Part shown: positions 39,824 through 55,388 of the stretch, piece by piece | How the letters are laid out: the number at the start of each line of letters is the position of its first letter | Position numbering within the stretch: position 1 is the first letter of the stretch | Notes under the pieces: model-generated | Databases searched by the model: none | The model's input: only the letters and a program-made list of their open reading frames with translations | Told to the model about the DNA's origin: nothing | Made by a program: the position numbers and the translations under genes | From: Alphaproteobacteria bacterium | Lineage (GTDB): Bacteria > Pseudomonadota > Alphaproteobacteria > Rhodobacterales > Rhodobacteraceae | Direction: 5' to 3' | NCBI GenBank assembly: GCA_030427145.1 | Contig: JAUHWT010000004.1 | Coordinates: 62,001-126,000, forward strand | DNA: 64,000 nucleotides

Positions 39824-39851
39824 TTGCGTTTTCCTCCTCCGTTGAATTTGG

Positions 39852-41006: not shown

Positions 41007-41019
41007 GTAATAGGGCCTT

Positions 41020-42540
41020 TCAGTGCCAGCCGACGCGGGGCGCCGCCGGGATCATTCCGGGACGCTCCACCGCAATTGTGGAGATCAGACGATCCCGCAC
41101 GGATGCGGCACCGACGGTGTCCCAAAGGTTTTTCATCTCGAAGGGATCGTTGATGAGGTCGTACAGTTCACCCGCACCGCTCGTCAGATCAACGGACAGA
41201 CGGTGGGTACGCGACCTGACGGTTCGCAGGTCGAGATCAACGCCGCTGCGCTCTGCGTCGACCTCCCATTCGTTATGGGCCACATCACGTTCCGCACCGC
41301 CCAGGACGTCGAGAAGCGACAAACCGTCGTCATCAGATGCGTTAATCCCGCAAAGCTCCGCGACCGTCGCGCGCAAATCGAGCGTCGATACCGGCGCGTC
41401 AAACCGTCCCTGGGCAATGCCGGGCCCGGCCATGACAAGCGGCACGCGCAACAACCCGTCGTAGAGCATCGGTCCCTTAAGAAGCAGACCGTGATCCCCC
41501 AGCCACTCGCCATGGTCGGACGTGAAGATGACGATTGTGTTTTCCAGCCGACCGGATGCCTCCAGGTGGTCAAGGATGCGTCCAATCTGATGATCGATTG
41601 CAGCGATCATCCCATAATAAACCGCAATCGCATCGCGCAGATCCGCGTCGCCCAGCGCATCGTCATTACCCCAGTAAGGCTGATCTTCCGCATGGTTGCG
41701 TTTCTGCGTGCGGCGGACCGGGCTTTCGAGGAATGCCCGATGCCACCAGGGCCGCCTGTCCAGATCCATCTCCCGGTGCAGCGGCAGATCGACCTCGGCC
41801 GGGTCGTACATTGAGGCCCAGGGCGAGGCGGCAAGGAACGGCGGATGTGGATCCGGGAACGAAATCCAGGACATCAGCGGCCTGTCGCCGCGGGTCTCCA
41901 GCATTTCAACCGCACGGTCGCCAACCCAGGAGGTGGACATCCACTCGTCCTCCAGCGCCGAGCGCCAGACCTGTTTGTGGCTGGTCAGCGGCGGGACGGC
42001 CTCTTTGGCGCGCGCCCACCGCGCTCCGCCCTGACCATCCTGATCGAGAAAATGCTCGTAGTGGAGTGTGTTCGGCCGATCTTTCCACCCGCAGTGATGA
42101 TGTGGCCGCAACGTCAGCGCCACGTTCTCAAACCCCATATAGGGACCGGTCCAGCTTTCGTCGAACCGCGCCACGGAGCCGTAGCATTCGGGAAAACCGG
42201 TCGGGGAAAAGGTCTCGTGCGTCGAGAAATGCGCCTTGCCGATGAAACCCGTGTCGTATCCCGCACGGGAAAAAAGCCCGCCCAGCCCCTCCTCCGCCAG
42301 ATCCGGGTCCAGATTGCGACCGTTGTCGCGTACGCCATGACTGTAAGGGAGCTTGCCTGTGAGAATTGAGGCCCTCGCGGCCTGGCACATGGGATGGGGG
42401 GTTATACAGGTGTCGAAACGGGCACCGCGGGAGGCGATCCGGTCAATGTTCGGCGTCCTCACCAATCGTCCCGCACCGCCAATACAGTCTCCGCGCTGCT
42501 GATCCGTGGTGATCAGAAGGATATCCGGTGCACCGCTCAC
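41020..42540 (-). CDS. sulfatase (arylsulfatase A family), cytoplasmic by prediction
   Basis: A 506-residue sulfatase. N-terminal metal site ILLITTDQQRGD, activation motif Cys52-Gln-Ala-Ala-Arg (fits C-x-P/A-x-R, cysteine type, requiring conversion to formylglycine), later FTSDHGEWLGDHG. There is no signal peptide, so sulfate-ester cleavage should occur in the cytoplasm. The start is GTG 42540, overlapping the stop of a 21-codon leader frame. No formylglycine-generating enzyme is encoded in the window. It is first in the operon with a dehydratase and an Opp-type importer, suggesting that a sulfated sugar is imported. Confidence 0.92.
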   Translation of the reverse strand: MSGAPDILLITTDQQRGDCIGGAGRLVRTPNIDRIASRGARFDTCITPHPMCQAARASILTGKLPYSHGVRDNGRNLDPDLAEEGLGGLFSRAGYDTGFIGKAHFSTHETFSPTGFPECYGSVARFDESWTGPYMGFENVALTLRPHHHCGWKDRPNTLHYEHFLDQDGQGGARWARAKEAVPPLTSHKQVWRSALEDEWMSTSWVGDRAVEMLETRGDRPLMSWISFPDPHPPFLAASPWASMYDPAEVDLPLHREMDLDRRPWWHRAFLESPVRRTQKRNHAEDQPYWGNDDALGDADLRDAIAVYYGMIAAIDHQIGRILDHLEASGRLENTIVIFTSDHGEWLGDHGLLLKGPMLYDGLLRVPLVMAGPGIAQGRFDAPVSTLDLRATVAELCGINASDDDGLSLLDVLGGAERDVAHNEWEVDAERSGVDLDLRTVRSRTHRLSVDLTSGAGELYDLINDPFEMKNLWDTVGAASVRDRLISTIAVERPGMIPAAPRVGWH

Positions 42541-42882: not shown

Positions 42883-43794
42883 TTACTGAATTCGGTACAG
42901 CCGCCGTGCCGTATCGGAGAACACCGACCGAACCACAGCCCTCGTTTGCCCGGAGAAAACAGAAGTCAGCTGTTTGAACTGTTCACCCACGGGGCAATTT
43001 ACAGTCTCAACCGGCAGGTTCGATCCATAGAGCACCCGGTCAGGGCCGATAAAGTTCAGCAAATGTGCGATGTAAGGAGCAATGACGGAAGAACGCCACT
43101 TCCGGTCCACGGTCCAGAGCCCCGAGAGCTTGACGTAGACATTCTCCACATCTGCCAAGGCCTTGATACCGTCCAGCCAATTGCGGGCGTTTCCGGGCCG
43201 ACCCGGCTCCAGCGTCGCGAAATGGTTGATCACAAGTTTCAAGGCGGGATGGTCGATTGCCAGAGCCCGCACCTCGGAAAGCTGTTCAGGAACGACAACA
43301 AATTCCAGACAGAGTTGGTTGTCCTCCAGGGTTTTCAGCACACTGCGAAACCCGGGATCGGAAAGGACTTCAGGCCGGTCCGCCACGCGCCACCGGCCCT
43401 CGGCATCCCACGCAACCGGTGTCCGGACGCCGCGCAGGGCCGGAACGCGCAGATGACGTGCGATTTGGGCTCTGGCATCCGTGCAGCAGAGATCAACCTC
43501 CGCAACAATTGCCGATGGCCACCCGTCCCTCTCCGCCAGTTCCTGCAGCCAAAGCGTTTCCTCCACCGGGTCAGCAGCGCCGCAATTGGCCTGAACGTGG
43601 ACACTTGCCGCCAGGGGCAGGTCCCGAAATGTTGCAAGGTAATCAGCCGGCAGGAAATCCCGGCTGATCGACGCCTTATCGCCAAACCGCGCCGGTGGAG
43701 CATCTGGCGCAAGCCAGCGATATGGAAAGCGGCTCAGATCCCAGAAGTGATGGTGTCCATCAACCAGATCAATTCCGTCAAGCCACTCCACCAT
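42883..43794 (-). CDS. amidohydrolase family protein, COG3618 sugar lactonase-like
   Basis: A 303-residue TIM-barrel metal hydrolase. The N-terminal motif DGHHHFWDLSRFPYRWL is characteristic of the COG3618 family that includes L-fuconolactonase and L-rhamnono-lactonase; later marks are VHVQANCG, LEFVVVP, LVINHFA, VYVKLSG and VLYGSNLPV. It should open an aldonolactone. ATG 43794 lies 2 bp after the SDR stop; the longer open frame would overlap the SDR gene by 70 bp and is rejected. It is the last gene of the LacI-led minus-strand operon. Confidence 0.85.
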   Translation of the reverse strand: MVEWLDGIDLVDGHHHFWDLSRFPYRWLAPDAPPARFGDKASISRDFLPADYLATFRDLPLAASVHVQANCGAADPVEETLWLQELAERDGWPSAIVAEVDLCCTDARAQIARHLRVPALRGVRTPVAWDAEGRWRVADRPEVLSDPGFRSVLKTLEDNQLCLEFVVVPEQLSEVRALAIDHPALKLVINHFATLEPGRPGNARNWLDGIKALADVENVYVKLSGLWTVDRKWRSSVIAPYIAHLLNFIGPDRVLYGSNLPVETVNCPVGEQFKQLTSVFSGQTRAVVRSVFSDTARRLYRIQ

Positions 43795-43796
43795 GC

Positions 43797-44537
43797 TCAG
43801 TACGTCGCGCGTCCACCTGAGAGATCGAACACCGAACCTGTCGTAAAGCTGTTTTCTATCGAACACAGCCAGACGATCATTGCCGCCGCCTCATCAAGCT
43901 CCAGAAAACGGCCCCGCGGAATTTTGGAAAGCATGTAGTCTATGTGTTCCTGTTTCATCTGGTCGAATATGCGCGTCCGGGCCGCGGCGGGCGTCACACA
44001 GTTCACGGCTATGTCCTGACCCGCGAGTTCCTTGCCCAGGGATTTGGTCAATCCGATCACGCCCGCTTTCGACGCGGAATACGCGCTGGCGTTGGGATTG
44101 CCCTCCTTGCCGGCAACGGACGCAATGTTGACGATACGCCCATAACCCTGACTGGTCATTGCCGGCACCACGGCACGGTTGACGTGGAATGTGCCGAGAA
44201 GATTGATCTCCGTGATCGTCCGGAATTCCTCCACCGGATAATCGGCCAACGGCATGTTGGAGCCTGCAATGCCCGCGGAATTCACGAGGATATCGGCGCG
44301 TCCGGTCTGCTCAAGCGTGTACGCCATTGCCTTCTCGACGCTGTCGTAATCCGAAATGTCGACCTCGCACGCAAAAGCACTCCCATCGATCTCCGTTGCG
44401 GCCTCCCTCGCCAGTTCCGCGTCACGATCCCAGATGGCGAGCCTTGCTCCAGCCTCCGCGAGCCGATTTGCGACGGCACGGCCAATACCCTGGGCACCGC
44501 CTGTTACAATTGCGGTCTGATTGCTGAAGTCTGTCAT
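43797..44537 (-). CDS. SDR family oxidoreductase (keto-deoxy-rhamnonate/fuconate dehydrogenase-like)
   Basis: A 246-residue classical SDR: TGGAQGIGRAVANRL, Asp38 as NAD-preferring acidic residue (IWDRDA), VNSAG, NIASVAGKEGNPNASAYSAS (Tyr-x3-Lys) and FDLSGGRATY at the end. The segment after the catalytic serine resembles enzymes that oxidise C4 of 2-keto-3-deoxy-L-rhamnonate or L-fuconate, but an L-sugar 1-dehydrogenase role is equally possible. Coupled by overlap to the Gfo/Idh gene and followed at once by a lactonase gene. Confidence 0.85.
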   Translation of the reverse strand: MTDFSNQTAIVTGGAQGIGRAVANRLAEAGARLAIWDRDAELAREAATEIDGSAFACEVDISDYDSVEKAMAYTLEQTGRADILVNSAGIAGSNMPLADYPVEEFRTITEINLLGTFHVNRAVVPAMTSQGYGRIVNIASVAGKEGNPNASAYSASKAGVIGLTKSLGKELAGQDIAVNCVTPAAARTRIFDQMKQEHIDYMLSKIPRGRFLELDEAAAMIVWLCSIENSFTTGSVFDLSGGRATY

Positions 44538-45607
44538 TCTGCGGCTGCTTTCTGCTTTAAATTAATCAACTGTTCCTGTCCGTTCGCTTTGCCTGAGGCG
44601 ACAATGGCGTGAAGCGTTTCCACCGCCCTGGCCCCAACCTCCCCCGGGCTTTCATTGCAGCCGTGACCCAGCGCGAGATCAACCAACCGAGCTGCAGGTG
44701 CCTCGCAACTGTATTTCCAGGCCCCTTCCGGGACATCGGCCACCCGCGTTTCGCCATCGGGGAGTTTGAGCACCAGGCGCTCCGTCTCAATATCGAGAAG
44801 CACCGAACCCCGGCTGCCGTAGATGCGCAGATCGACCTCAAAGCCATGGCCGTTGGGGACACCGCAACTGCCGGAAAACACCCCGGTTGCCCCACCCTCA
44901 AAACGGACCGCAGCTGCGTCGTGCAGATCAATGGAACTCGGCGCGTCAAACAACATCGCCCGAACGGAGGCACAGCGTAGATCCGTGAGCCAGTAAAGAA
45001 TGCCCAGCGCATGCGACAGCTGCCCATAGGCATAACCTCCCCCCTGGTCAGGCGCTTCCCATGTGCTGCGTTCCGGCTGAATGGCGATGTGCCCCCAGTT
45101 TGAAAGCGTACCGCCAGAGAAAATGCTTCGGGTGAAGGACGCCATGTGACAGACCACGTGCTCAATATCACCGATCTCGGCGATCATTTCCCGCATTTCA
45201 TCGAGGCCCGGCTTGTAGTTCCAGCCATAGGCCACCAGCAGTTCACGGCCGCATGCTTTCGCCAACTCCACCAGATCCCAGGCTTCACCGGGGTCGAGGC
45301 ACATCGGTTTTTCCACCAGGACGTGACAGCCCTTCTGAAGGAAAGCGCGGGCCTGTTCGTAGTGGAGGTTATGCGGCGACGAGATAACCGCCACATCAAT
45401 GTCCCTGTCCAAAATCTCGCGCCAGTTCTCGGTCGCAAATACAAATCCGAACTCATCGGCAATGAGATCGAGCTCATCGCGCCCAAGGCGACAAACGGAG
45501 TCGAGGACAACGTCGCTCCGTGCCGCAAGAACCGGGATGTGCATGCGGTAGGCGAAATGACCGGCACCGATGATTGCGGCCCGCACGGGTCCAATTTTTG
45601 AAGTCAT
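44534..45607 (-). CDS. Gfo/Idh/MocA family oxidoreductase
   Basis: A 357-residue NAD(P)-dependent sugar oxidoreductase: Rossmann start AAIIGAGHFAYRMHIP, the conserved EKP motif (VLVEKPMCLDP) and a C-terminal substrate domain with GGGYAYGQLSHALGILYWL. Such enzymes oxidise sugars or inositols at C1 or a ring carbon, often giving a lactone. It sits between the LacI regulator and the SDR with 4-bp overlaps on both sides, and a lactonase is encoded next, so it is a candidate for the first oxidation step. Confidence 0.9.
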   Translation of the reverse strand: MTSKIGPVRAAIIGAGHFAYRMHIPVLAARSDVVLDSVCRLGRDELDLIADEFGFVFATENWREILDRDIDVAVISSPHNLHYEQARAFLQKGCHVLVEKPMCLDPGEAWDLVELAKACGRELLVAYGWNYKPGLDEMREMIAEIGDIEHVVCHMASFTRSIFSGGTLSNWGHIAIQPERSTWEAPDQGGGYAYGQLSHALGILYWLTDLRCASVRAMLFDAPSSIDLHDAAAVRFEGGATGVFSGSCGVPNGHGFEVDLRIYGSRGSVLLDIETERLVLKLPDGETRVADVPEGAWKYSCEAPAARLVDLALGHGCNESPGEVGARAVETLHAIVASGKANGQEQLINLKQKAAAE

Positions 45608-46623
45608 GTACTTTCCCTGATTTGCAGGTGATAGCCGATGTCCTGGGTCACGGGCTCATTCGCGCCACCCTCAAGCCGCTCCATCACGAGGTTTGCCGAA
45701 CACTCACCAATGGCCCGCCCCCTGATCTGAACGGTTGTCATAGGCACCGGAAGAAGCGCGGAAAGGCTGAGATCACCGAAACCGGCAATGGCCAGTTCAT
45801 CGGGCACCCTGACCCCGTTGGAAATGCACCAAAGCATGGCGCCATGGGCAGGCAGTTCCGCGAGAAAGAAGAGCGCGTCCGGCCTGCGTTTGCGTGCAAA
45901 CAGACTCTTAACAAGGGAAAGCCCACCCTCTATGGTTGCCGGGTTGTCAAACTCAACGATCGTATCCTCGTCGACGCTGCGGCCTGCCCCACGCATGGCG
46001 TCCACAAAGCCGCGCCGTCGATCCTCCGCCTGGTCGTTGTTGACTGACGAGCCGCCGACCATGACAATTTCCCTGTAGCCGCGCTCAATCAGATAGCGGG
46101 TCATCTCGACAGCGGCGCCGTAGTTGTCAAAACCCACCGCGCTATCGATCGCGTTGTCCCGAAGGTTCCAGGCCTCAACCACCGGGCCGGAAAAACTGTC
46201 GAGCAGTTTACGGGCGGTCTGTGTGTGGGAGAAACCCGTCACGATGATCGCGTCGGCCTGGCGGGCGATGAAGGTCCGAATCGCCTCTTCCTCCTTTTTC
46301 GGAGACCAGTCGCTGACGGCGAGGAGCATCTGCTGCTTCCTCGGCTCCAGTACATGGCTGACCCCCTGCGCAAAATCCGCAAACAGGGAACTGGCAAGAA
46401 TGGGCACGACCACCCCGATCATGTCGGATCGCTGCGACACGAGGGAACGGGCCGTCAGGTTCGGGATGTAGCCGATTTCCTCAATCGTGCTCTGAATCCT
46501 TGCGCGCGTATCCGCGTGGACGGTCTCCGGCTGACGCAGGGCACGCGACACGGTAATCAACGAAAGCCCGGAGGCTTTTGAGACGTCCTTGAGCGTCACC
46601 TTTTTCCTGTCACCTTGCGCCAT
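45604..46623 (-). CDS. LacI family transcriptional regulator
   Basis: A 339-residue regulator with the LacI helix-turn-helix (VTLKDVSKASGLSLITVSRA), the hinge helix region PNLTARSLVSQRS, and a periplasmic-binding-like ligand domain (IGVVVPILASSLF, VGFDNYGAAVEMTRYL, IAGFGDLSLSALL). It is divergent from the CUT1 transporter operon, and a pair of near-identical inverted sites lies between them. It most probably represses both units until a sugar or sugar-acid inducer is present. It is also first in its own catabolic operon. Confidence 0.94.
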   Translation of the reverse strand: MAQGDRKKVTLKDVSKASGLSLITVSRALRQPETVHADTRARIQSTIEEIGYIPNLTARSLVSQRSDMIGVVVPILASSLFADFAQGVSHVLEPRKQQMLLAVSDWSPKKEEEAIRTFIARQADAIIVTGFSHTQTARKLLDSFSGPVVEAWNLRDNAIDSAVGFDNYGAAVEMTRYLIERGYREIVMVGGSSVNNDQAEDRRRGFVDAMRGAGRSVDEDTIVEFDNPATIEGGLSLVKSLFARKRRPDALFFLAELPAHGAMLWCISNGVRVPDELAIAGFGDLSLSALLPVPMTTVQIRGRAIGECSANLVMERLEGGANEPVTQDIGYHLQIREST

Positions 46624-46713
46624 TCACGGCCTCCCTGTCGGCATTTTGCCCAGCATCATCCGGTCGAAACTGCGTGAGAATTTCGACAAAGGCAATGCGG
46701 TAAAATTACCGTT

Positions 46714-46770
46714 GACATACGAGTATCATTGCCAATAACGTCCGTCAATATGGAATGATACTCGAATGTC
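46714..46770. promoter_or_regulatory. paired LacI-type operators in the divergent promoter region
   Basis: GACATACGAGTATCATT (46714-46730) and the reverse complement of 46754-46770 (GACATTCGAGTATCATT) agree at 16 of 17 positions. Site centres are 40 bp apart. Each site contains a near-palindromic ATACGAGTAT core, and the left one overlaps a TTGACA box (46712-46717) reading towards the transporter. A matching ATGACA lies at the right site on the other strand. Confidence 0.75.
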
Positions 46771-46826
46771 ATCGCAGCTCAGCGCAAAACGCAGATCATC
46801 GACGACAACAAAACCGGGAGGATACA

Positions 46827-48143
46827 ATGTCGAATTCCATCAACCGCCGCAGCTTTCTAAAAACCACAAGCGCAATGGGCGCGGCCTCACTTCTGCCGGC
46901 TGGACAGGCTCTCGCCGCCAGCGGAGAAATCTCTGTCTGGAAATTCGGTGGAACACCTCAGGAGGTTGAGGTCTGGGCCCAGCGCAATGACGCGTTTTCC
47001 GCCGCGAATGGCGACGTCAGCCTGAACTACTCCTACTTCAACGGTCAGATCCGCCGACAAAAAATCCTCGCGGGCTTCCAGACCAACCGCCTCGCAGACG
47101 TCGTGATCGCCTTCGGTCAGGACATCCCGGAATTTGCCGGTTTCGGCATGATCCAGCCGCTAGACGATATTGCCGGCGACCGAATGGCCGGTTGGAAGGA
47201 CCGCATAGTCCCGGAAGTATTTGAATCCGGCATGCACGACGGGAAACTCTACGCCCTGCCGACCTATGTCGACATGGCGAGTTTCCTTGCCATCAATCTC
47301 GACGCTCTCGAGGAAGCGGGCTTTGACCGGCCGCCCGAGACGTGGGAGGAGGTTCGCGAATATGCAAAAGCGATGACCAAACCGGACCGCCCCGGTATCG
47401 CCTTCCCGGCCACGACCGCACCTGTTGACATCAACATCTTCGAAGGCATTGCCTATGCCAATGGCGGTCGCATTTTCGATGAGGAGTCCGGCAAGGTCAC
47501 CCTCAACGACCCCGGCGTCGTCGACGCGCTACAGTTCTACGTCAACCTTATCGAAGACGGCTCCACCCCCGCGGCAACATCCCTGACCGAAACCTTCTTC
47601 CGCGACACGGCACAGCTTTTCGGCCAGGGGCGTTCGGCCATGTGGATCGGCCTGTCCTGGCTCAATACACCCTGGGGCGTGAACGAGGGCATCCGCTGGA
47701 CCGGCGTGCCCATGCCACGGCCGACGGCACCCTCCGGCAGTTTTGAGCCTGTTAATGCCATCATGGACGGAACGGCAATGCTCATGGTTTCGTCGCGTTC
47801 GTCCAATCCGGAAGCCGCCATTGAGTATCTCGATTTCTGGTCCCAGAACGAACAGCTCGAAATCTGGGGTGGCCAGCCTGAAATTGCCCGTATCCCGGCT
47901 GGCAAGGCGGCGTGGGACAATGCCGAGTTGAAAGAGGCGTGGCCCAACTGGGTAAATGCCTATGACGCCGGAACCCTGTTCGAGGGTGGCGCTCCAATGC
48001 CGCGCTTCATCGGTGTATCAGCCATCGAATCCGCCCTTGGCACAGCGATCCAGCAGGCGGTTCTGGGACAGAAAACGCCGCAGGCCGCACTGGATGAGGC
48101 AACCGCTGCCGCACAGGGCCAGATTGACCTGATCCGCGGTTAA
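46827..48143 (+). CDS. CUT1 sugar ABC transporter substrate-binding protein (Tat-exported)
   Basis: A 438-residue family-1 binding protein. The N-terminus has a twin-arginine signal (NRRSFLKTT) and a cleavage region near ALAASGE. The mature part contains ISVWKFGGTPQEVE, LADVVIAFGQDIPEF, YALPTYVDMASFLAINLD and AAIEYLDFWSQNEQ, typical of MalE/UgpB-like proteins. ATG 46827 follows GGGAGG; the earlier frame from 46755 runs through the operator region. It heads a nine-gene plus-strand operon. Confidence 0.92.
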   Translation: MSNSINRRSFLKTTSAMGAASLLPAGQALAASGEISVWKFGGTPQEVEVWAQRNDAFSAANGDVSLNYSYFNGQIRRQKILAGFQTNRLADVVIAFGQDIPEFAGFGMIQPLDDIAGDRMAGWKDRIVPEVFESGMHDGKLYALPTYVDMASFLAINLDALEEAGFDRPPETWEEVREYAKAMTKPDRPGIAFPATTAPVDINIFEGIAYANGGRIFDEESGKVTLNDPGVVDALQFYVNLIEDGSTPAATSLTETFFRDTAQLFGQGRSAMWIGLSWLNTPWGVNEGIRWTGVPMPRPTAPSGSFEPVNAIMDGTAMLMVSSRSSNPEAAIEYLDFWSQNEQLEIWGGQPEIARIPAGKAAWDNAELKEAWPNWVNAYDAGTLFEGGAPMPRFIGVSAIESALGTAIQQAVLGQKTPQAALDEATAAAQGQIDLIRG

Positions 48144-48185
48144 GCTCCGACAAACTCAACGACTGAAAACAAGGAGGGCCTGACG

Positions 48186-49070
48186 GTGCTTAAAAGCGAT
48201 CGTATTCTGGCGTACGCCCTGATTTTGCCCGTGGTGGCCGCCGTCCTGGCGTTTGTCGTCGGGCCCACTTACAACGTGGCCACCCTCAGCCTCACCCAGG
48301 TGGTCATGGGAATGGAGCGTGGCTTCGGCACGCTCTCAAACTTCGAGGCTCTCGCCGCCGATCCGGTGTTCGGTCTGGTTCTGAAGAACACGGCCATCTG
48401 GATCCTCGGGGGCACATTCCTGTGCGTTACCGTCGGTCTGGGCGTCGGCACTTTCCTCGCAATCGACTCCCGCATGACCGGCTGGCTGCGTGCGCTGATA
48501 CTTCTGCCATGGGTTCTGCCCGATGTGGTCACGGCCATGGCATGGAAATGGATGCTGCACGGACAGGTCGGCATCATCGGACAAACCCTGCAATCCTGGG
48601 GTTTCAGCGAGGGTGCGATATCCTTCATGGGCGATCCGAATCTCGTCATGTGGACGCTCGTGGTTGTGCTGATCTGGCGGAAAATGCCGCTGGTAGCACT
48701 CATCCTCTGTGCCGCAATCCGGTCCGTCCCCGATGACCAGATCGAGGCCGCGCGTATGGATGGAGCAAACGCCTTTGAGCGGTTCCGTTTCGTCACCCTG
48801 CCCAATATCGCGTTCTCGCTGACCGCCGTCACCGTGATCTCGATGATCTGGATCACGGCCGAATTCGCCCTTCCCTGGATCATGACAGGCGGCGGTCCAG
48901 CCAATGCCAGCCAGATCATGGCGACCTACATCTACCAGCAGAGTTTTGAGTTCTTCAACTGGGGTGTCGCGTCGGCCATGTCGGTCATCAACCTGGTCAT
49001 GCTGGCTTCGATTGTCGCCCTTTACCTCTACATCAACCGCCGTTCCTGGTCATCGGAGGGCTCGAAATGA
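48186..49070 (+). CDS. CUT1 sugar ABC transporter permease (MalF/UgpA-like)
   Basis: A 294-residue permease with six hydrophobic helices and the CUT1 loop EAARMDGANAFERFRFVTLPN. It starts at GTG 48186, 6 nt after a strong AAGGAGGG. There is no large MalF-type periplasmic loop. It pairs with the permease at 49067, whose start overlaps its stop by 4 bp. Confidence 0.92.
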   Translation: MLKSDRILAYALILPVVAAVLAFVVGPTYNVATLSLTQVVMGMERGFGTLSNFEALAADPVFGLVLKNTAIWILGGTFLCVTVGLGVGTFLAIDSRMTGWLRALILLPWVLPDVVTAMAWKWMLHGQVGIIGQTLQSWGFSEGAISFMGDPNLVMWTLVVVLIWRKMPLVALILCAAIRSVPDDQIEAARMDGANAFERFRFVTLPNIAFSLTAVTVISMIWITAEFALPWIMTGGGPANASQIMATYIYQQSFEFFNWGVASAMSVINLVMLASIVALYLYINRRSWSSEGSK

Positions 49071-49924
49071 ACGAACAGCCCCGTACCCTCTACTGGATCA
49101 TGCTGAGCCTGATCGGCATTGTAATCTCGATCTACGTCCTGTTCCCGGTGTTCTGGCTTTTCCTTGCGTCTTTCAAGACACAGGCTGAACTCGCGCAGCT
49201 GCCGATCTCCTTCTGGCCGGCATCCCCGACGCTCGATGCCTACAAGGCGCTGTTCTCTCCCACCCATCAGAAGGGACAGCTTCTCGACTGGCCGCAGCTG
49301 ATTGGAAACAGCTTCTTCATCGCGATCAGCTCCACTGTGATCGTTCTGTTCTTCGGCACTCTTGCCGGCTATTCCTTCGCACGGCTGAACTTCCCCGGCC
49401 GCGACCTCATACTGGGTGGCCTTCTGATAAGCCGCATGTTCCAGGGCGCGGCGCTGTTACTGCCGACATACAGACTGATGTCGATGATCGGACTTCAGGA
49501 CAGCCTGATCGGTCTGGTGCTCCTCTACTCCGCCTTCGGCCTGCCATTCGCCACCTGGATCATTGCATCGTCCCTGCGCGAAATTCCCAAGGAACTTGAG
49601 GAAAGCGCGATGATCGACGGCGCAAGCCGGCTGCAGAGTATGGTCCTGGTGGTGCTTCCCCTGGCCACTCCTGCGCTGATCACCGCCGCGATGTGGCACT
49701 TCGTCGGTGCATGGTCGGAATTCGCCTTCGCCTCAATCCTTCTGGAGTCGAACGAGAACAAGACCGTGACCATCGGCCTCGCCAGCTTCGTCGAACTTTT
49801 CACGCTGGAGTTCCAGTATGTTGGAGCGGCCGCAACCATCGTCGCCCTGCCGATCATGCTGGTGTTCTTCTTCGGCCAACGCTACTTCACACGCGGCCTT
49901 CTGGCCGGGGCGGTGAAGGGATGA
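49067..49924 (+). CDS. CUT1 sugar ABC transporter permease (MalG/UgpE-like)
   Basis: A 285-residue permease with six helices, FPVFWLFLASFKT near the start and the CUT1 loop EESAMIDGASRLQSMVLVVL. It overlaps the dehydratase gene that follows by 4 bp; an enzyme gene inserted between permease and ATPase genes underlines the link between uptake and breakdown. Confidence 0.92.
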   Translation: MNEQPRTLYWIMLSLIGIVISIYVLFPVFWLFLASFKTQAELAQLPISFWPASPTLDAYKALFSPTHQKGQLLDWPQLIGNSFFIAISSTVIVLFFGTLAGYSFARLNFPGRDLILGGLLISRMFQGAALLLPTYRLMSMIGLQDSLIGLVLLYSAFGLPFATWIIASSLREIPKELEESAMIDGASRLQSMVLVVLPLATPALITAAMWHFVGAWSEFAFASILLESNENKTVTIGLASFVELFTLEFQYVGAAATIVALPIMLVFFFGQRYFTRGLLAGAVKG

Positions 49925-51075
49925 GGATTACATCCATTACCGCACGCGCCGTCGATTGCGGCTTCAACAGTCAAAAGCTGCAAACCAGTCGCGTCGCCTC
50001 CCCCATGTCCCGCTTCCCCCGTTTCGCTGAACAGCGGGCAAGCTGGATGTGGCCCACCAAAAAGGTCTTCGTTCGGGTGACCGGCGAGGACGGGAGCACC
50101 GGCTGGGGCTGCACCAACGGTGGCGAGATCGTCGAGATGATCATCAATTCCCACCTGGCACGGCTGGCGAAGGGTGAGAGCGTCGATGATCTGCCATCCC
50201 TGAATGAGATGATGGCTGCCTCGCTTCTCCCCAACGATCGCTCCGGCTTTGCCATGATGGCCGTTGCGGGTGCCGATATTGCCCTTTGGGACTTAACGGC
50301 CAGGGCACGGAACAAGCCCCTGGTCGACCTTCTCGGTGGCGCGGGGGTAGACAGCCTCCCGGTCTACATGACCACCCCGCGTCCCGAGGCCTTTGTCGCC
50401 GGCCCCTGGCGCGGCCTGAAAGCCGCCGCCCCCTACGGCCCGGAATCCGGCGAAGAGGGGCTGAAAGAAAACGTCGCCCTGATGCGCCGGTTTGCCAAGG
50501 CTGCAGGCCCGGACGTGCCCATCATGATCGACGCGTTCCTCGCATGGGACGCGGATTACACTCTGCGCTTCGCCGAGGCCTGCGCGGACATGCCACTCGC
50601 ATGGATTGAGGATCCAATCCCACCCCAGGATATCGAAGGGCTGGAAAAAATCCGGCAGGGCATGGACCCGGAAATCGAACTGGCGCTTGGCAACTTTGCG
50701 TTCTCTTACGCCGATTGTAAGGATCTGCTCCGGTCCGGTCTGGTAGGATACCTGCAACCGGACGTGGCCTGGGCGGGCGGCATATCGGAAACGCTGCGCA
50801 TCCTCGATCTCGCAAAAGCCGCCGAAGTCCCGGTGATCCTGCATAACACCTGCGAACAACCCTGGGCATTGGCTCTGGCCGCGTCACGGCAAACCGATGC
50901 GCTCGTCGAATGCGTCGACCGCGGCGAAACGTCACCGCTTTACACGCTGATGGGCGCGCGCCCCGGTTTTACCGAGGGCCATGCAGCCGTGCCAAGCGAC
51001 TCAACCGGTAACCAGCCGCCGGAATACGTGCTGGAGAGGTTCGCCGCCGACGCCTTCAACAACAGGAAAGGATAG
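49921..51075 (+). CDS. L-rhamnonate dehydratase-like enolase-superfamily protein with altered metal site
   Basis: A 384-residue protein with recognisable similarity to L-rhamnonate dehydratase: ASPMSRFPRFAEQR near residue 27, GLKAAAPYGPESGEEGLKEN and LQPDVAWAGGISE. Metal ligands Asp204 and Glu230 and the Asp281/His308 dyad are kept. The third ligand is not: where the family has GEHHG, this protein has GNFAF, so Asn258 replaces Glu and Phe259 replaces His. It may be a dehydratase with a changed metal site, another reaction, or an inactive form. ATG 49921 overlaps the permease stop; earlier starts are rejected. Confidence 0.82.
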   Translation: MRITSITARAVDCGFNSQKLQTSRVASPMSRFPRFAEQRASWMWPTKKVFVRVTGEDGSTGWGCTNGGEIVEMIINSHLARLAKGESVDDLPSLNEMMAASLLPNDRSGFAMMAVAGADIALWDLTARARNKPLVDLLGGAGVDSLPVYMTTPRPEAFVAGPWRGLKAAAPYGPESGEEGLKENVALMRRFAKAAGPDVPIMIDAFLAWDADYTLRFAEACADMPLAWIEDPIPPQDIEGLEKIRQGMDPEIELALGNFAFSYADCKDLLRSGLVGYLQPDVAWAGGISETLRILDLAKAAEVPVILHNTCEQPWALALAASRQTDALVECVDRGETSPLYTLMGARPGFTEGHAAVPSDSTGNQPPEYVLERFAADAFNNRKG

Positions 51076-51078
51076 ACC

Positions 51079-52146
51079 ATGGGATCTGTCGCACTCAAAA
51101 ACATCCGCAAATCCTATGGCGCCGTAGAGGTCCTGCACGGAATTGATCTCGACATTCAGGACGGAGAATTCACCGTTCTCGTCGGTCCCTCCGGCTGTGG
51201 AAAGTCAACGCTGCTGCGCTCGATTGCGGGCCTGGAGACCATCAGCAATGGCGACATCGCCATCGATGGCACCGTGATCAATTCACTGGTCCCAAAGGAC
51301 AGGGACATCGCCATGGTGTTCCAGAACTATGCCCTCTACCCGCACATGAGCGTGGCCAAAAACATGGGCTTCTCCCTACGCCTCGCAAAGGAACCGCAGG
51401 ACCGGATAGACAGCAAGGTCCGCGCCGCCGCGGAAATCCTTGATTTGACCGCCCTGCTCGACCGCTACCCGCGCCAGCTTTCCGGCGGCCAGCGCCAGCG
51501 CGTGGCCATGGGCCGCGCCATCGTGCGCGACCCCAAGGTGTTCCTGTTTGACGAGCCACTGTCCAACCTCGACGCAAAGCTGCGCGTACAGATGCGTTCG
51601 GAGATCAAGGAACTGCATCAACGGCTGAAGACCACCACGATCTATGTCACCCACGATCAGATTGAGGCCATGACAATGGCGGACAGGATCGTGGTCATGC
51701 GCGGCGGACATGTTGAGCAGATCGGCACACCCCTAGAACTCTACGACAACCCCGCCAGCGTCTTCGTGGCCGGCTTCATTGGCTCACCGGCCATGAACTT
51801 CCTGCCCGCGCGGAACAGTGATGGCAGCCTTCAGGTCGGCAAAGGCGAAAACCTTGGACCGTCTCCCGTCAGCCTTCGGAACGGAAGAGAGGTCATCGTG
51901 GGCTTCCGCCCCGAGGATATCCGGCTCTCCGACGGCGGCCTCCCCGCCAAGGTTGCACTGATTGAACCGACCGGAGCGGAAACCCAACTGACCCTGCGCA
52001 CAACCGAAGGTAACGGGGTGATCATGACCACCCGCGAACGCATCGCACACTCCGTCGGGGACGCCGTGCATGTGGCCGTCACACCAGGCAAACTGCACTG
52101 CTTTGACACCGAAACCGAACTCAGCCTGACCGGGTCCGTGCAATGA
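51079..52146 (+). CDS. CUT1 sugar ABC transporter ATP-binding protein (UgpC/MalK/MsmK-like)
   Basis: A 355-residue ATPase: Walker A GPSGCGKST, IAMVFQNYALYPHMSV, signature LSGGQRQRVAMGRAI, Walker B FLFDEPLSNLDAKL, switch THDQIEAMTM, and a C-terminal TOBE/regulatory region (VIVGFRPEDIRLSDGG). It energises the permease pair at 48186 and 49067. It overlaps the next dehydratase gene by 4 bp. Confidence 0.95.
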   Translation: MGSVALKNIRKSYGAVEVLHGIDLDIQDGEFTVLVGPSGCGKSTLLRSIAGLETISNGDIAIDGTVINSLVPKDRDIAMVFQNYALYPHMSVAKNMGFSLRLAKEPQDRIDSKVRAAAEILDLTALLDRYPRQLSGGQRQRVAMGRAIVRDPKVFLFDEPLSNLDAKLRVQMRSEIKELHQRLKTTTIYVTHDQIEAMTMADRIVVMRGGHVEQIGTPLELYDNPASVFVAGFIGSPAMNFLPARNSDGSLQVGKGENLGPSPVSLRNGREVIVGFRPEDIRLSDGGLPAKVALIEPTGAETQLTLRTTEGNGVIMTTRERIAHSVGDAVHVAVTPGKLHCFDTETELSLTGSVQ

Positions 52147-53306
52147 GGATAACGGATGTCAGGGTAATCCGTTTCCGGACCCATGCCGACCGTTGGGACA
52201 TCGGCCATGCCCGTCTCAAACCCAACGCCGAAGTCCACCAGACGGTGACTTGCATCGATACTGACGAGGGTCTGACCGGGTATTTCTTCGGCGGCGGCAA
52301 ACACGGGGACCAGGACGGCATGACACCCGATGAGCAGCGTCTCATCGAGGGTCAGGTGCGCAACATGATCCTCGGCGCGGACCCGTTTGACCGGGAACTG
52401 ATCTGGAAGTGGATGTGGGTCCGAAACATACCCGAGGTGGCGCAGAGCGTCATCGACTGTGCGCTATGGGATCTGGCCGGACGCGCAGCGGATCTGCCGG
52501 TCTACAAACTGATGGGCAGCGCGCGGGACAGGGTCCCGGCCTATGCCTCCACCTACCCCAACATCGGCCAGCCTGAGGTCTATGCGACACACGCGCTCGC
52601 CTGCAAGGCGGAAGGCTACAGGGCCTACAAGATCCACCCACACTACTTCTGGAATCCGGAGACCGGCCTGCCCACGAACGGCCGCCCGTCAAACATCCGT
52701 GCTGATATCGAAACCGTCAATCTGGTGCGCGAGGCCGTCGGGTCGGACATGGTGCTGATGTACGACGTCTGGGGTACGTACCACACCATTGAGGAAACCA
52801 TAAAGGTCGGACGGGAGCTCGAAAAACTCGACTTCTACTGGTTTGAGCACCCCATGCCGGAATACCGGGTCGAAAGCTACCGACGCCTGTGCCGCGAACT
52901 TTCGATCCCCGTTCTTGCACCCGAAATCGCCGCAGGCGGGGTTTTCACCCGCGCGGAGTGGATCCTTCAGGGCGCCTCCGACATGAGCCGCATGGATATC
53001 CGTCGCGGCGGTGTCACCGGATGCAGAAAAACCGCCGTGGTCTGCGAAGCCTTCGGCCAGCGGTGCGAGATCCACATGGCGGGCTGGGGCAACCTTCAGG
53101 TGATGGGCGCGACCTCAGAGGACACCAGCGAATGGTACGAAAAAGGCCTACTCGCCCCTGGTGTCAATTACGACGCGCCACACCCCTACCTGAAGCACAA
53201 TTGCGACCCGATGGACGCCGAAGGGTACGTCGCCCTGCCCAAGGCACCGGGTCTCGGATACGAGCCCATCTGGGACTATATCGACGAAAACAGGATCGCG
53301 GCATGA
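52143..53306 (+). CDS. enolase-superfamily sugar-acid dehydratase (mandelate racemase/MLE family)
   Basis: A 387-residue enzyme with a complete active site: Lys163-x-His165 (YKIHPHY), metal ligands Asp208 (MYDVW), Glu235 (FEHP) and Glu261 (APEIA), and the Asp285/His311 pair (MDIRRGG, EIHMAG). This is likely the working dehydratase of the operon, acting on an aldonate made by the divergent dehydrogenase and lactonase. The subgroup is not one I can name, and its substrate is open. It is coupled to the mutarotase gene by a 4-bp overlap. Confidence 0.85.
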   Translation: MRITDVRVIRFRTHADRWDIGHARLKPNAEVHQTVTCIDTDEGLTGYFFGGGKHGDQDGMTPDEQRLIEGQVRNMILGADPFDRELIWKWMWVRNIPEVAQSVIDCALWDLAGRAADLPVYKLMGSARDRVPAYASTYPNIGQPEVYATHALACKAEGYRAYKIHPHYFWNPETGLPTNGRPSNIRADIETVNLVREAVGSDMVLMYDVWGTYHTIEETIKVGRELEKLDFYWFEHPMPEYRVESYRRLCRELSIPVLAPEIAAGGVFTRAEWILQGASDMSRMDIRRGGVTGCRKTAVVCEAFGQRCEIHMAGWGNLQVMGATSEDTSEWYEKGLLAPGVNYDAPHPYLKHNCDPMDAEGYVALPKAPGLGYEPIWDYIDENRIAA

Positions 53307-53644
53307 CGCTTTACCGTCGTGTCTGGACGATGGAACTGCGGGAGGGTGCCGAGGCCGAATATGACGCGGCCCACGCTAACATCTGGCCCGACCTGACCGC
53401 GCAGATGACCCAAAACGGCATCGTCCGGTTTTTCCTCTATCGCGCCGGAACCACCGTCTTTGCCTTCCAGGAACGCAACCGCCCCTTCCCTGCATCAAAC
53501 TATTCCCCGCCCTCGGGCCTGACCGCAAGATGGTGGCGCAAAATGGCTCCGCTGATGTGCACCGAAGGACCGGAAGCGCGCCCAATCCACCACGATCTGC
53601 GCGAGGTTTTCGCGTTGGATGTTACCACGGAGAAAACGACATGA
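53303..53644 (+). CDS. rhaM: L-rhamnose mutarotase
   Basis: A 113-residue protein of the RhaM family, which interconverts alpha and beta anomers of L-rhamnose (and sometimes other sugars). The marks are the MTLYRRVWTMELREGAE start, Tyr20 and His24 in EYDAAHANIWPDL, and ARWWRKMAPLM. Length is standard. Its overlap with both neighbours (4 bp each) ties it to the dehydratase and aldolase. Its presence is the best single clue to the sugar handled by this operon. Confidence 0.9.
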   Translation: MTLYRRVWTMELREGAEAEYDAAHANIWPDLTAQMTQNGIVRFFLYRAGTTVFAFQERNRPFPASNYSPPSGLTARWWRKMAPLMCTEGPEARPIHHDLREVFALDVTTEKTT

Positions 53645-54549
53645 CTGGCATCACGGGTATCGTTCCCATCTTGCTGACTCCGTTTCGCCAGGACCTGACG
53701 ATTGACCACGACAGCCTGAAGCGTGAAATTGACGCCACCCTTGCAACCGGTGTGCACGGCATCGGTATCGCGATCGGCAGTGAGATATTCAAACTGACCC
53801 GCGACGAACGGCGCGAGATGCTGCGCGTTACCGTCGAGCATGTTCAGGACCGCGTACCGGTGATTATGAACACCTCCGCTCCGGGAACCGCACCGGCCGT
53901 GGAGCTGGCCCGTGACGCCGCTGCCGCCGGTGCATCCCGGTTGATGATCTGGCCGCCGGATTTCTTCGCTCTCGGCCCCGGCCCGGTCATCGCGCATCTG
54001 TCGCGCATTGCCGATGCCTCGCAGCTGCCGATCATTCTCCAGGATGTCCCGCAGGCGCCCATTTCACCCGCCCTGGCTCTTCGCATTGCCGAGGCCGTGC
54101 CGCTGGTCGACACGATCAAGGTCGAAACCAACCCAACCGTGGCTCAGGTCGGCACTATGGTCGGCGCGGTCGGGGACAGGCTGACCGTTCTGGGTGGTGC
54201 AGGCGGCGGCACGCTGGTGGAGGAATACCGGCGCGGCGCCCGTGGCACCATGCCCTTCGCCAGTCAGGCCGATGAATTCATGCGGGCCTGGCGGGCACTT
54301 GAGGCGGGCCAGGATGAAGAGGCCGCCGAAATAATCGAGACCGAAATACTGCCGGTCAGTCGCCTGGGCTTCCAGTCGGGCGACATGTTCTATCACGTCC
54401 ACAAGGCGCTGCTGCACCAGGCAGGCATCTTCACCAGTGCGAGGGTACGCCCTCCGACCGCGATACCTGATGAAATCACGGAACAGGAGCTGACACGCCT
54501 GCTCGACCGGACCAAACCGAAATCGACGAAGGAAAAAACAACCGCATGA
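53641..54549 (+). CDS. dihydrodipicolinate synthase family aldolase
   Basis: A 302-residue class I aldolase of the DapA/NanA family. The Schiff-base lysine is Lys160 in DTIKVETNP, and GIGIAIGSEIFKLTRDER is the usual N-terminal segment. The catalytic tyrosine of the YNVP motif is replaced (LQDVP, Gln134). It probably cleaves a 2-keto-3-deoxy acid to pyruvate and an aldehyde, giving a second exit beside the FAH hydrolase. It overlaps both neighbouring genes by 4 bp. Confidence 0.87.
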   Translation: MTGITGIVPILLTPFRQDLTIDHDSLKREIDATLATGVHGIGIAIGSEIFKLTRDERREMLRVTVEHVQDRVPVIMNTSAPGTAPAVELARDAAAAGASRLMIWPPDFFALGPGPVIAHLSRIADASQLPIILQDVPQAPISPALALRIAEAVPLVDTIKVETNPTVAQVGTMVGAVGDRLTVLGGAGGGTLVEEYRRGARGTMPFASQADEFMRAWRALEAGQDEEAAEIIETEILPVSRLGFQSGDMFYHVHKALLHQAGIFTSARVRPPTAIPDEITEQELTRLLDRTKPKSTKEKTTA

Positions 54550-55388
54550 AACTTCTCCGCGTCGGCCCCGAAGGCCAGGAACGCCCCGCCCTGCTGGACG
54601 AAAATGAAACGTTGCGCGACCTGTCATCCGTCGTGCCGGACATTGCCGGCGACACTCTGACGCCTGAAGGGATCGACCGGCTGCGCGCCGTGGACCCTAT
54701 CAGCTTGCCGAAGATTACCGGTTCCCCCAGAATTGGCCCCTGCGTCGGCTCGGTCGGAAAATTCATCTGCATCGGACTGAACTATGCCGACCACGCCCAG
54801 GAAAGCGGTATGGAGGTTCCCAAGGAACCCGTAATCTTTATGAAAGCAACGTCGTCGATCTGCGGTCCCAATGACGATGTCGTTCTGCCCGAAGGGGCCG
54901 ACAAGGGTGACTGGGAAGTTGAACTCGGCGTCGTGATCGGCAAACCGGCCAAGAACGTCGCAGAGGCCGACGCGCTTGAGCATGTTGCGGGATACTGCGT
55001 CGTCAACGATGTCTCCGAACGCGCTTTCCAACTGGAACATGGTGGACAGTGGGTTAAGGGAAAATCCGCGGACACTTTCGGTCCAATTGGCCCGTGGCTC
55101 GTGACCCGTGACGAGGTTGGGGATCCCGCCGACCTCGACATGTGGCTCGAACTGAACGGCCGCCGGGTTCAGGACGGATCAACCAGGACGATGATTTTCG
55201 GTGTGGCCCATGTGGTGTCCTACCTGTCCCGGTACATGTCCTTGCAACCCGGCGACATTATTTCCACCGGCACACCCCCGGGCGTCGGCCTTGGCATGTC
55301 ACCGCCACAATTCCTGAAAACCGGCGACGAAATGCGCCTGTCCATCCAGGGAATGGGCGAACAGCACCAGGCCGTTCGGCAGGGCTGA
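54546..55388 (+). CDS. fumarylacetoacetate hydrolase family protein, 2,4-diketo-3-deoxy-L-rhamnonate hydrolase-like
   Basis: A 280-residue FAH-fold hydrolase: CIGLNYADHAQESGMEVP, the metal motif DWEVELGVVIGKPAK, NDVSERAFQ, KSADTFGPIGPWLV and STGTPPGVGLGM. Members in deoxysugar operons (LRA6 in Sphingomonas) split 2,4-diketo-3-deoxy-L-rhamnonate into pyruvate and lactate. The surrounding mutarotase, dehydratases and SDR support that role. It is the last gene of the plus-strand operon and is followed by a terminator. Confidence 0.88.
   Translation: MKLLRVGPEGQERPALLDENETLRDLSSVVPDIAGDTLTPEGIDRLRAVDPISLPKITGSPRIGPCVGSVGKFICIGLNYADHAQESGMEVPKEPVIFMKATSSICGPNDDVVLPEGADKGDWEVELGVVIGKPAKNVAEADALEHVAGYCVVNDVSERAFQLEHGGQWVKGKSADTFGPIGPWLVTRDEVGDPADLDMWLELNGRRVQDGSTRTMIFGVAHVVSYLSRYMSLQPGDIISTGTPPGVGLGMSPPQFLKTGDEMRLSIQGMGEQHQAVRQG

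Follow-up and report, generated by a model that had tools for sequence, protein, structure and literature searches.

A conserved divergent gene block, mostly of Rhodobacterales, with a predicted phosphate-free oxidative route for a rhamnose-type 6-deoxyhexose

Gene content, conservation and promoter region

The window analyzed here, a stretch of 64,000 nucleotides from a Rhodobacteraceae genome, contains a divergent block of 13 genes on two strands (Table 1). The original prediction had placed this block at 42883-55388; the coordinates are right and every gene that it named is present. All ten proteins scanned with NCBIfam and Pfam models belong to the families named there, and the two permeases and the ATPase, which lay outside the scan, were assigned from the annotation of a copy in Jannaschia. 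The SBP scored 109 bits with SBP_bac_1 and 25 bits with TAT_signal. Gene starts of MRa and RhaM were set in this analysis, and those of the lactonase and SBP were corrected by sequence reading, probably to 43794 and 46827. Eight gene junctions overlap by 4 nt.

Table 1. Features of the block and its direct neighbors in the window.
Feature	Position	Strand	Basis
COG3618-type amidohydrolase, putative aldonolactonase (Lac)	42883..43794	-	Pfam Amidohydro_2
SDR dehydrogenase, putative 2-keto-3-deoxy-L-rhamnonate 4-dehydrogenase (LRA5-like)	43797..44537	-	identity to rhmD-adjacent SDRs
Gfo/Idh/MocA oxidoreductase, putative sugar 1-dehydrogenase	44534..45607	-	Pfam GFO_IDH_MocA
LacI-family regulator	45604..46623	-	NCBIfam/Pfam
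Putative operator 1, 20-bp palindrome, includes TTGACA at 46712-46717	46711..46730	.	conserved palindrome
Putative operator 2, second 20-bp palindrome, 43-bp spacing to operator 1	46754..46773	.	conserved palindrome
CUT1-type solute-binding protein (SBP), Tat-type signal	46827..48143	+	Pfam SBP_bac_1, TAT_signal
CUT1 permease, MalF-like	48186..49070	+	sugar ABC permease annotation in Jannaschia copy
CUT1 permease, MalG-like	49067..49924	+	annotation in Jannaschia copy
MRa, enolase superfamily, L-rhamnonate-dehydratase-like	49921..51075	+	PRK15440, 3fxg matches
CUT1 ATPase, UgpC/MalK-like	51079..52146	+	annotation in Jannaschia copy
MRb, enolase superfamily	52143..53306	+	best PDB 1rvk/4hcd
RhaM-family mutarotase	53303..53644	+	Pfam rhaM
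DHDPS-superfamily enzyme; Q134, K160-x-E162, no Tyr at aldolase position	53641..54549	+	alignment
FAH-family hydrolase, putative 2,4-diketo-3-deoxy-L-rhamnonate hydrolase (LRA6-like)	54546..55388	+	NF053535, 8gsr matches
Sulfatase downstream of Lac, membership uncertain	41020..42540	-	Pfam Sulfatase 148 bits
DUF2264 protein, putative uronate dehydratase	55468..57345	-	Pfam 412 bits

The block is common to a number of mostly marine bacteria. Most carriers agree with its assignment to Rhodobacterales, but two bins bear the name Granulosicoccus. The comparison covers 21 distinct loci, with L044 excluded for its 98.6% identity to L055. The plus-strand order SBP-MalF-MalG-MRa-MalK-MRb-RhaM-DHDPS is kept at all of them, each with a putative dehydratase gene between the permease and ATPase genes, so that the placing of enzymes among transporter genes, called distinctive in the original prediction, is both distinctive and conserved. 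All 13 genes occur in the window's order at 12 loci, which argues that the arrangement is not due to chance; the nine others match it on the plus strand as far as DHDPS and vary elsewhere. Lac and Gfo/Idh genes are present at 21 loci, SDR at 18 and FAH at 14. No FAH gene was seen in the seven blocks L059, L060, L061, L065, L066, L070 and L071, where the lactonase-side flanks are short, and three of these (L059, L061, L066) also have no visible SDR. One genome whose block has no visible FAH gene (G391) encodes an FAH protein of 64% identity elsewhere. In L068 and L069 the FAH gene has moved to the minus strand, L059 has a second LacI, LacI is displaced in L061, and in L065 and L066 a sulfatase is inserted within the minus-strand operon. 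One copy of the block is carried by a 52-kb Jannaschia plasmid, and the cassette is probably mobile.

The proposal of a single LacI promoter region was borne out by a conserved pair of palindromes between the divergent operons. The pair with its 43-bp spacing is present in 20 of 20 aligned promoter regions and was located by scan in L061, giving 21 of 21. The window's genome contains no such palindromic site elsewhere at up to 2 mismatches. The site pattern was not enriched (a reversed control matched 4 and 4 times, versus 2 and 2), and within the window its matches at 3 mismatches were at chance level. Because the genome has no further LacI site, the neighboring genes are not visibly part of the LacI regulon, and no site was found for the DUF2264 neighbor. 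Binding of LacI to the two palindromes would repress both divergent operons until an inducer is present, and this two-site promoter offers a ready reporter for identifying the true inducer.

Enzymes of the predicted oxidative route

The lactonase scored 115 bits with Amidohydro_2; its best NCBIfam model is L-fucono-1,5-lactonase (101 bits, cut-off 400) and its best PDB match is 4dlf at 53 bits. Where this tested fuconolactonase has the Asp of a GSD motif, Lac has Asn (GSN), as does the solved relative 6uvz. Identity to a COG3618-type protein of Sphingobium is 29%. The Gfo/Idh protein scored 81 bits with GFO_IDH_MocA and just 64 bits with its best PDB match. The mutarotase is by sequence a member of the RhaM family, with 60.9 bits against a Pfam cut-off of 23.4, but it remains below the NCBIfam cut-off for L-rhamnose mutarotase (46.6 versus 99.6 bits).

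Among solved proteins, FAH is closest to L-2,4-diketo-3-deoxyrhamnonate hydrolase (8gsr, 317 bits), followed by an aromatic-pathway enzyme at 205 bits; with NF053535 it scored 418.7 bits, under the cut-off of 500. For proteins encoded next to rhmD, identity to FAH and SDR is 68% and 64% in Ketogulonicigenium, versus 56% and 54% in Sphingobium. These are very broad families in which HpcE/HpaG relatives score well, and both proteins could in principle serve the breakdown of aromatic compounds or some other unrelated pathway, the block then not being a sugar route. We consider this highly improbable in view of the two FAH scores just given and of an operon shared with a CUT1 importer, RhaM and two sugar-acid-dehydratase homologs. 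The firm clustering of FAH and SDR with aromatic pathways, which the original prediction had set against itself, was not found.

The role of the SDR is less clear. It is the only one of the ten scanned proteins above any NCBIfam cut-off, that of the broad 'glucose 1-dehydrogenase' subfamily (221 versus 215), and could therefore be a 1-dehydrogenase. In a comparison with Sphingobium RAC03, using LRA labels assigned by position, it is 31% identical to the SDR in the LRA1 position and 54% to that in the LRA5 position, so that the block's single SDR does not match an SDR-type L-rhamnose 1-dehydrogenase. Its resemblance to rhmD-adjacent SDRs, annotated rather than assayed sequences, is accompanied by nearer relatives elsewhere: the closest plasmid-borne ones are not next to rhmD, the one of 77% adjoining inositol genes and the one of 69% an unnamed enolase-family gene. 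Either the Gfo/Idh protein or the SDR may be the 1-dehydrogenase.

MRa scored 195 bits with PRK15440 (cut-off 393) and 173 bits with the 'rhamnonate dehydratase' 3fxg, versus 73 bits with the L-fuconate dehydratase 2hne, and is 30-32% identical to rhmD. In all 21 aligned MRa sequences GNF replaces the GEH motif found in 2oz3 and 3fxg, so that the Glu-His pair of the solved L-rhamnonate dehydratase is lacking. By score, identity and motif MRa falls short of an rhmD/RhaD enzyme, yet nothing else in the window's genome matches rhmD better, and no rhmD ortholog was found in block or genome.

The block probably serves to take up a rhamnose-like sugar and to oxidize it without phosphate. The sugar would be imported by the CUT1 system, its anomers balanced by RhaM, C1 oxidized by the Gfo/Idh protein and the lactone opened by the COG3618 protein. 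An enolase-superfamily dehydratase (MRa, MRb or both) would produce the 2-keto-3-deoxy acid, after which the SDR would oxidize C4 and FAH split the diketo acid to pyruvate and L-lactate. The proposed oxidative 6-deoxyhexose route is supported as far as its non-phosphorylating type and possible end in pyruvate and lactate are concerned, given the likeness of FAH and SDR to rhmD partners. To call it a full version of the known route is too strong, since MRa lacks the two L-rhamnonate dehydratase residues, the 1-dehydrogenase is uncertain, Lac has Asn for Asp and no FAH gene was seen in a third of the blocks.

MRb and the DHDPS-superfamily protein

MRb ranks with the best-conserved proteins encoded by the block, with 79-93% identity to those of 20 other blocks and K163, D208, E235, E261, D285 and H311 invariant in 12 aligned sequences. 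In a family search its orthologs were at least 68% identical and all remaining matches at most 45%, and relatives of 56-75% were found in other orders and phyla. Its nearest solved relative, also of the enolase superfamily, is 1rvk/4hcd (240 bits over nearly the full length), which we take to be the Agrobacterium galactarate dehydratase III, Atu4196, an enzyme that presumably works with a DHDPS-family partner. L-Fuconate dehydratase was absent among the 60 listed of 135 structure matches.

The DHDPS protein had been proposed to provide an aldolase exit. DHDPS-type aldolases have a catalytic Tyr before the Schiff-base Lys; this position is Gln in all 48 aligned sequences, and the protein resembles a dehydratase more than it does an aldolase. 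Its best match in sequence and fold is L-2-keto-3-deoxyarabonate dehydratase (KdaD), whose Gln and K-x-E are kept in 48 of 48. The second Glu of KdaD is not kept: at the site of E201 of CnKdaD, the C5 base (PMC13398020), the aligned proteins have Gly (43), Ala (2), Asn (2) or Asp (1), so that the L-KDA dehydratase residue set is incomplete in each.

MRb and the DHDPS protein may form a second branch or exit. Because the pair occurs without the rest of the cassette in other phyla, this branch is perhaps older than the cassette. No assigned function for the pair was found; if the reading of the block is right, the cassette offers a testable setting for it. A bolder proposal, which we hold to be rather unlikely, is a new two-enzyme branch extending from Roseobacteraceae to Chloroflexota, in which MRb would convert a 6-deoxyhexonate to the 2-keto-3-deoxy acid and the DHDPS protein would remove the C4 hydroxyl without chain cleavage, giving 2,5-dioxohexanoate. 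This would place a Route-II-type deoxyhexose exit beside Route III in one operon, whereas Route II has been called specific to pentoses (PMC11199699).

Sugar substrate and comparison with known systems

A separate phosphorylative rhamnose operon, absent from the original prediction, is present in the window's genome. Such genes lie near five of the 21 blocks (L007, L062, L070/L146, L063/L140, L067/L142), with 16 bp between FAH and RhaK in Jannaschia. RhaEW was found in 7 of 8 block genomes and in 96 of 386 others (one-sided Fisher p 4.5e-4, shared ancestry ignored). Together with the likeness of FAH and SDR to rhmD partners, this association makes a rhamnose-type sugar the best-supported substrate.

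The same kind of route could serve another sugar, such as L-fucose, L-galactose, L-lyxose or L-arabinose, a possibility that we regard as realistic but doubtful. The SDR and FAH may also accept 2-keto-3-deoxypentonates, as a related Herbaspirillum pair does (PMC6336799), and the fucono-lactonase model of Lac, the low RhaM score, the KdaD-like DHDPS protein, the existing rhamnose route and the SDR relatives away from rhmD agree with this. However, the linkage to phosphorylative rhamnose operons, both in position and in genome content, the SDR and FAH pairs beside annotated rhmD and the preference of MRa for 3fxg over 2hne argue against it. A tentative further argument against it is that FucF types 1-4 carry Arg at position 148 (PMC11199699); three residues before its catalytic Tyr the window's SDR has Ala, where Arg is found in two SDRs that we judged FucF-like by reading and that served to place this position.

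The neighboring genes may point to a more specific source. In ulvan, a major polysaccharide of algae, rhamnose is a main sugar (PMC8511951), and the cassette might serve rhamnose from sulfated, uronate-linked ulvan-like oligosaccharides, prepared intracellularly by the flanking sulfatase, the DUF2264 uronate dehydratase and Opp-type importers. In agreement with this, a sulfatase adjoins the lactonase in the window and lies inside the operon in L065 and L066; in other phyla, 4 of 23 loci have one at most 12 kb from MRb. In the window, L053 and L071 the block is directly followed by a DUF2264 gene, and in G372 (L143) such a gene is about 17 kb away; the solved relatives of its product (9o4u, 91 bits; 9nwf, 88 bits) are beta-D-glucuronate dehydratases. 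L142 and the Jannaschia plasmid encode KduI and a DUF4962 protein close to the block. On the other hand, sulfatases were seen at just 3 of 21 blocks, the window's genome has 13 sulfatase matches, the neighbors are not visibly under LacI control, and the DUF2264 family, linked with chondroitin in another case (PMC12269599), is not ulvan-specific. We consider the ulvan connection unlikely.

The reading of the block as a cassette for a rhamnose-type sugar is supported by the plus-strand order, the palindromes, the likeness to rhmD partners, the RhaEW association and the RhaM score above the Pfam cut-off. Against it stand the possible 1-dehydrogenase role of the SDR, the residue changes in MRa and Lac, the FAH and SDR gaps, the existing phosphorylative operon and the unenriched site pattern. 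On balance we lean towards a self-contained cassette, mostly of Rhodobacterales, that oxidizes L-rhamnose or a close derivative without phosphate. Some roseobacters would then have two rhamnose-type routes, the usual kinase route and an oxidative one carried by a cassette with its own switch.

The block combines known types of enzyme in a new way, with two putative dehydratases, two possible exits and a predicted chemistry. With the Sphingomonas-type LRA pathway (Route III) it would share the roles of amidohydrolase-type lactonase, SDR 4-dehydrogenase and FAH hydrolase, the latter two 54-68% identical to rhmD-adjacent proteins, and pyruvate and lactate are expected in both. It differs in having a Gfo/Idh protein for the SDR 1-dehydrogenase (unless the block's SDR takes this role), no rhmD ortholog, a CUT1 importer for RhaT, the additional MRb, DHDPS and RhaM proteins, and LacI with a double site. 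The non-phosphorylating L-fucose pathway FucMABCFGH (PMC11199699) likewise combines a mutarotase, COG3618 lactonase, enolase-superfamily dehydratase, DHDPS member, SDR and FAH, but the Arg shared by all four L-KDFDH types is apparently absent from the block's SDR, the DHDPS protein lacks the usual aldolase Tyr, and the block has no close L-fuconate dehydratase relative. In marine SAR202 bacteria, parallel non-phosphorylative fucose/rhamnose pathways combine paralogs of COG3618, COG4948, COG1028 and COG0329 (PMC10444878), the same COG set as in the block. The SAR202 authors found no kinase-dependent routes (PMC10444878), whereas 7 of 8 block genomes have kinase-type rhamnose genes.

Arrangement, distribution and regulation of the block

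The original prediction was right about the gene list and its position: the block is filled by 13 genes and lies on a 270-kb contig, the whole genome measuring 4.54 Mb. The minus strand carries LacI, a Gfo/Idh dehydrogenase, an SDR and a COG3618-type amidohydrolase; the plus strand carries a CUT1-type binding protein, two permeases, a first enolase-superfamily protein (MRa), the ATPase, a second one (MRb), and RhaM-, DHDPS- and FAH-family proteins. Ten proteins were assigned by family scans, and the permeases and ATPase were named from the annotation of Jannaschia. At eight junctions in the block neighbouring genes share 4 nt, a pattern known from translational coupling.

Coordinates of the block and of related features (contig coordinates for loci outside the window)
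Feature	Location	Strand	Content
Block	42883-55388	both	13 genes
MRb	52143-53306	+	enolase superfamily
Palindrome 1	46711-46730		20 bp, divergent region
Palindrome 2	46754-46773		20 bp, divergent region
Sulfatase run	33705-42540	-	sulfatase, third enolase-superfamily protein (MRc), Opp-type importer; directly downstream of block lactonase
DUF2264 operon	55468-63170	-	DUF2264 protein, Opp-type importer
UxaA-like genes	15027-16537	-	two-part sugar-acid dehydratase beside ribose-type transporter (names by eye)
L149, window's genome	G000:C21, 2138-12860		phosphorylative rhamnose operon
L009, window's genome	G000:C14, 7988-10454		SDR-FAH pair
L008, window's genome	G000:C37, 9092-10692		SDR-FAH pair
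L052	G324:C12, 9582-13859		second, divergent MRb-RhaM-DHDPS-lactonase-Gfo set, Opp-type importer

The 52-kb plasmid of Jannaschia sp. M317 holds all 13 genes in identical order. A search with MRb in 394 genomes of the family gave matches at E <= 1e-30 in 42 genomes, with orthologues at least 68% identical and all remaining matches at 45% or less; eight of the 394 carry the block, the window's own included (G000, G345, G333, G025, G204, G372, G324 and G391). From named genomes the best 80 of 97 MRb relatives were taken, of which 19 (L053-L071) represent the block. Six of these coincide with blocks of the family genomes and were counted once, and L044, the copy of G333, was left out, being 98.6% identical to L055 over 13.9 kb, so that with the window and Jannaschia there are 21 distinct blocks.

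All 21 keep the order binding protein-MalF-MalG-MRa-MalK-MRb-RhaM-DHDPS together with the lactonase and Gfo/Idh genes. The SDR is present in 18 and the FAH in 14, absences that may be partly apparent because flanks on the lactonase side are short, and 12 reproduce the full set of 13 genes as ordered in the window. L068 and L069 encode FAH on the minus strand, and L065 and L066 contain an inserted sulfatase gene. In G391 no FAH accompanies the block; its genome has a 64% relative at another site. Carriers are mostly named Rhodobacterales, cultured examples being Shimia biformata and Oceanicola granulosus. Two bins named Granulosicoccus, a gammaproteobacterium (L059 and L061, MRb 88-89% identical), have the block without SDR and FAH and with LacI extra or, in L061, displaced; the cause is either misbinning or movement of the block across class boundaries. 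The block is a set of ordinary enzyme families in a new and strongly conserved arrangement, which is probably mobile. Among the matches listed from open papers, none dealt with the block or with an oxidative rhamnose cluster of Rhodobacterales.

The two palindromes of the divergent region (consensus AATGATATACGTATATCATT) keep a constant spacing of 43 bp in each of the 20 promoter regions aligned, and a scan also found the pair in L061 and L044. Because of this conservation and constant spacing they are regarded as putative operators. With up to two mismatches the core pattern occurs genome-wide only at the two block sites (2 forward and 2 reverse hits, same sites), which is no enrichment over a reversed control (4 and 4); at three mismatches the count in the window is at chance level. 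With no other genomic site at up to two mismatches, LacI appears to act on this locus alone. TTGACA inside operator 1 could be a -35 box; a promoter scan gave no sigma-70 match at the two palindromes and no excess over shuffles.

Substrate and enzymes of the predicted oxidative route

Phosphorylative rhamnose genes lie close to five of the 21 blocks, wider flanks being available for only five other block genomes. They are found 16 bp from the FAH gene in Jannaschia, about 0.1 kb from the lactonase gene in Shimia biformata (L063/L140), about 9 kb away in G372 (L067/L142), and near the block in L062 and Pseudorhodobacter E13 (L070/L146). RhaEW, a kinase-route marker, occurs in 103 of the 394 genomes and in seven of the eight with the block (G025 is the exception), giving a one-sided Fisher p of 4.5e-4 if shared ancestry is ignored. 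On its contig 21 the window's genome has a phosphorylative operon of its own, whose isomerase differs from RhaI of Jannaschia. This association points to rhamnose as the substrate, and equally to a block that supplements the kinase route and might serve a derivative. The predicted oxidative 6-deoxyhexose route stands in outline, as a best guess; its completeness and its sugar are tentative.

For the exit enzymes, an aromatic pathway had been named as the outcome that would speak against the prediction. The best solved relative of FAH is L-2,4-diketo-3-deoxyrhamnonate hydrolase (317 bits), followed by an aromatic-pathway enzyme at 205. Plasmids of Ketogulonicigenium robustum (rhmD-SDR-FAH) and Sphingobium sp. 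RAC03 (rhmD-FAH-SDR-amidohydrolase-RhaT) place both enzymes beside an L-rhamnonate dehydratase gene, rhmD by annotation, with identities to the block of 68% and 56% for FAH and 64% and 54% for SDR, respectively. On these scores and identities the aromatic assignment was rejected. A firm reading of the SDR as an rhmD partner is weakened because nearer plasmid SDRs sit in other contexts: the one in Qingshengfaniella (77%) adjoins inositol genes, that in Cereibacter (69%) an unnamed enolase-family gene. A Loktanella plasmid SDR (65%) lies next to an IlvD-type dehydratase, and the block SDR scores above threshold on a broad 'glucose 1-dehydrogenase' model. The SDR-FAH pair alone does not prove a deoxyhexose substrate, since a related Herbaspirillum pair also acts on 2-keto-3-deoxypentonates, according to PMC6336799.

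An L-fucose pathway is disfavoured as the primary reading. PMC11199699 describes Arg at position 148 in all four types of L-fucose-pathway dehydrogenase. In our alignment the window SDR lacks Arg where two SDRs that we read as FucF-like carry it. The window's genome has two further SDR-FAH pairs; the one on contig 14 comprises an SDR 60% identical to that of the block and a second, FucF-like SDR, and adjoins a CUT1-type importer and an enolase-like gene.

For the entry steps, Gfo/Idh is a candidate 1-dehydrogenase and has only weak solved relatives. The amidohydrolase reaches 101 bits on an L-fucono-lactonase model (cut-off 400) and has Asn at the Asp of 4dlf in every readable block copy (three are unreadable), while RhaM scores 46.6 on the rhamnose model (cut-off 99.6). 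MRa is RhaD-like and the best rhmD match in the window's genome (32%; none better was found), yet all 21 aligned copies carry Asn-Phe in place of the Glu-His seen in 2oz3 and 3fxg. MRa keeps two further ligand positions as well as the Asp-His dyad.

Neighbouring sugar-acid genes

Sulfatase and uronate-dehydratase neighbours accompany few blocks and have no such operator; they would fit ulvan-like material. One regulon joining the sulfatase and DUF2264 operons to the block is unsupported, no further operator being found in the genome at up to two mismatches. MRc is galactonate/mannonate-dehydratase-like, under cut-offs. The window sulfatase has no signal peptide by eye, so desulfation may be cytoplasmic. 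Solved relatives of the DUF2264 protein belong to the former GH154 and act as beta-D-glucuronate dehydratases; equating it with the ulvan dehydratase P29_PDnc was wrong, the two being unrelated in sequence (PMC12269599). In L053 and L071, too, the block is followed by DUF2264 and the binding protein of its importer. KduI, a DUF4962 protein and a TRAP importer are further encoded on the Jannaschia plasmid (NZ_CP081158.1, L148/L007), which suggests that a single replicon serves the use of both uronate and rhamnose. With the UxaA-like genes beside a ribose-type transporter, the window has the look of a sugar-acid island.

The MRb and DHDPS-family pair

A DHDPS gene lies within 3.5 kb of MRb in all 19 named blocks, in 13 of 19 other alphaproteobacterial loci, in 15 of the 23 from other phyla and in none of 19 mycobacterial loci, some loci being truncated by contig ends. 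RhaM lies within that distance in 11 of the 19 other alphaproteobacterial loci. The mycobacterial loci (within L106-L132) hold an MRb relative of 56-58% identity, often with an SDR upstream, in species outside the tuberculosis complex by name. G324 carries the divergent set L052 besides a full block. In MRb, 12 of 12 aligned sequences share a strand bearing K-x-H, acidic residues at three positions and an Asp-His pair, with roles assigned by analogy.

The DHDPS protein had been predicted as a possible aldolase exit. Its predicted structure (pLDDT 88) retrieves L-2-keto-3-deoxyarabonate (L-KDA) dehydratase, KdaD, in rows 1-9 of a fold search (TM 0.85-0.87), but aldolase folds score about as high, so TM-scores hardly separate the family. 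An ordinary aldolase is disfavoured by the residues of 48 aligned homologues, such as Gln for Tyr. We read the protein as a dehydratase-like enzyme or, less probably, an aldolase. It differs from KdaD in that the Glu of the C5 base is found in 0 of 48 (Gly in 43, Ala in 2, Asn in 2, Asp in 1), and resembles it in having Gln at the usual Tyr position together with K-x-E in all 48.
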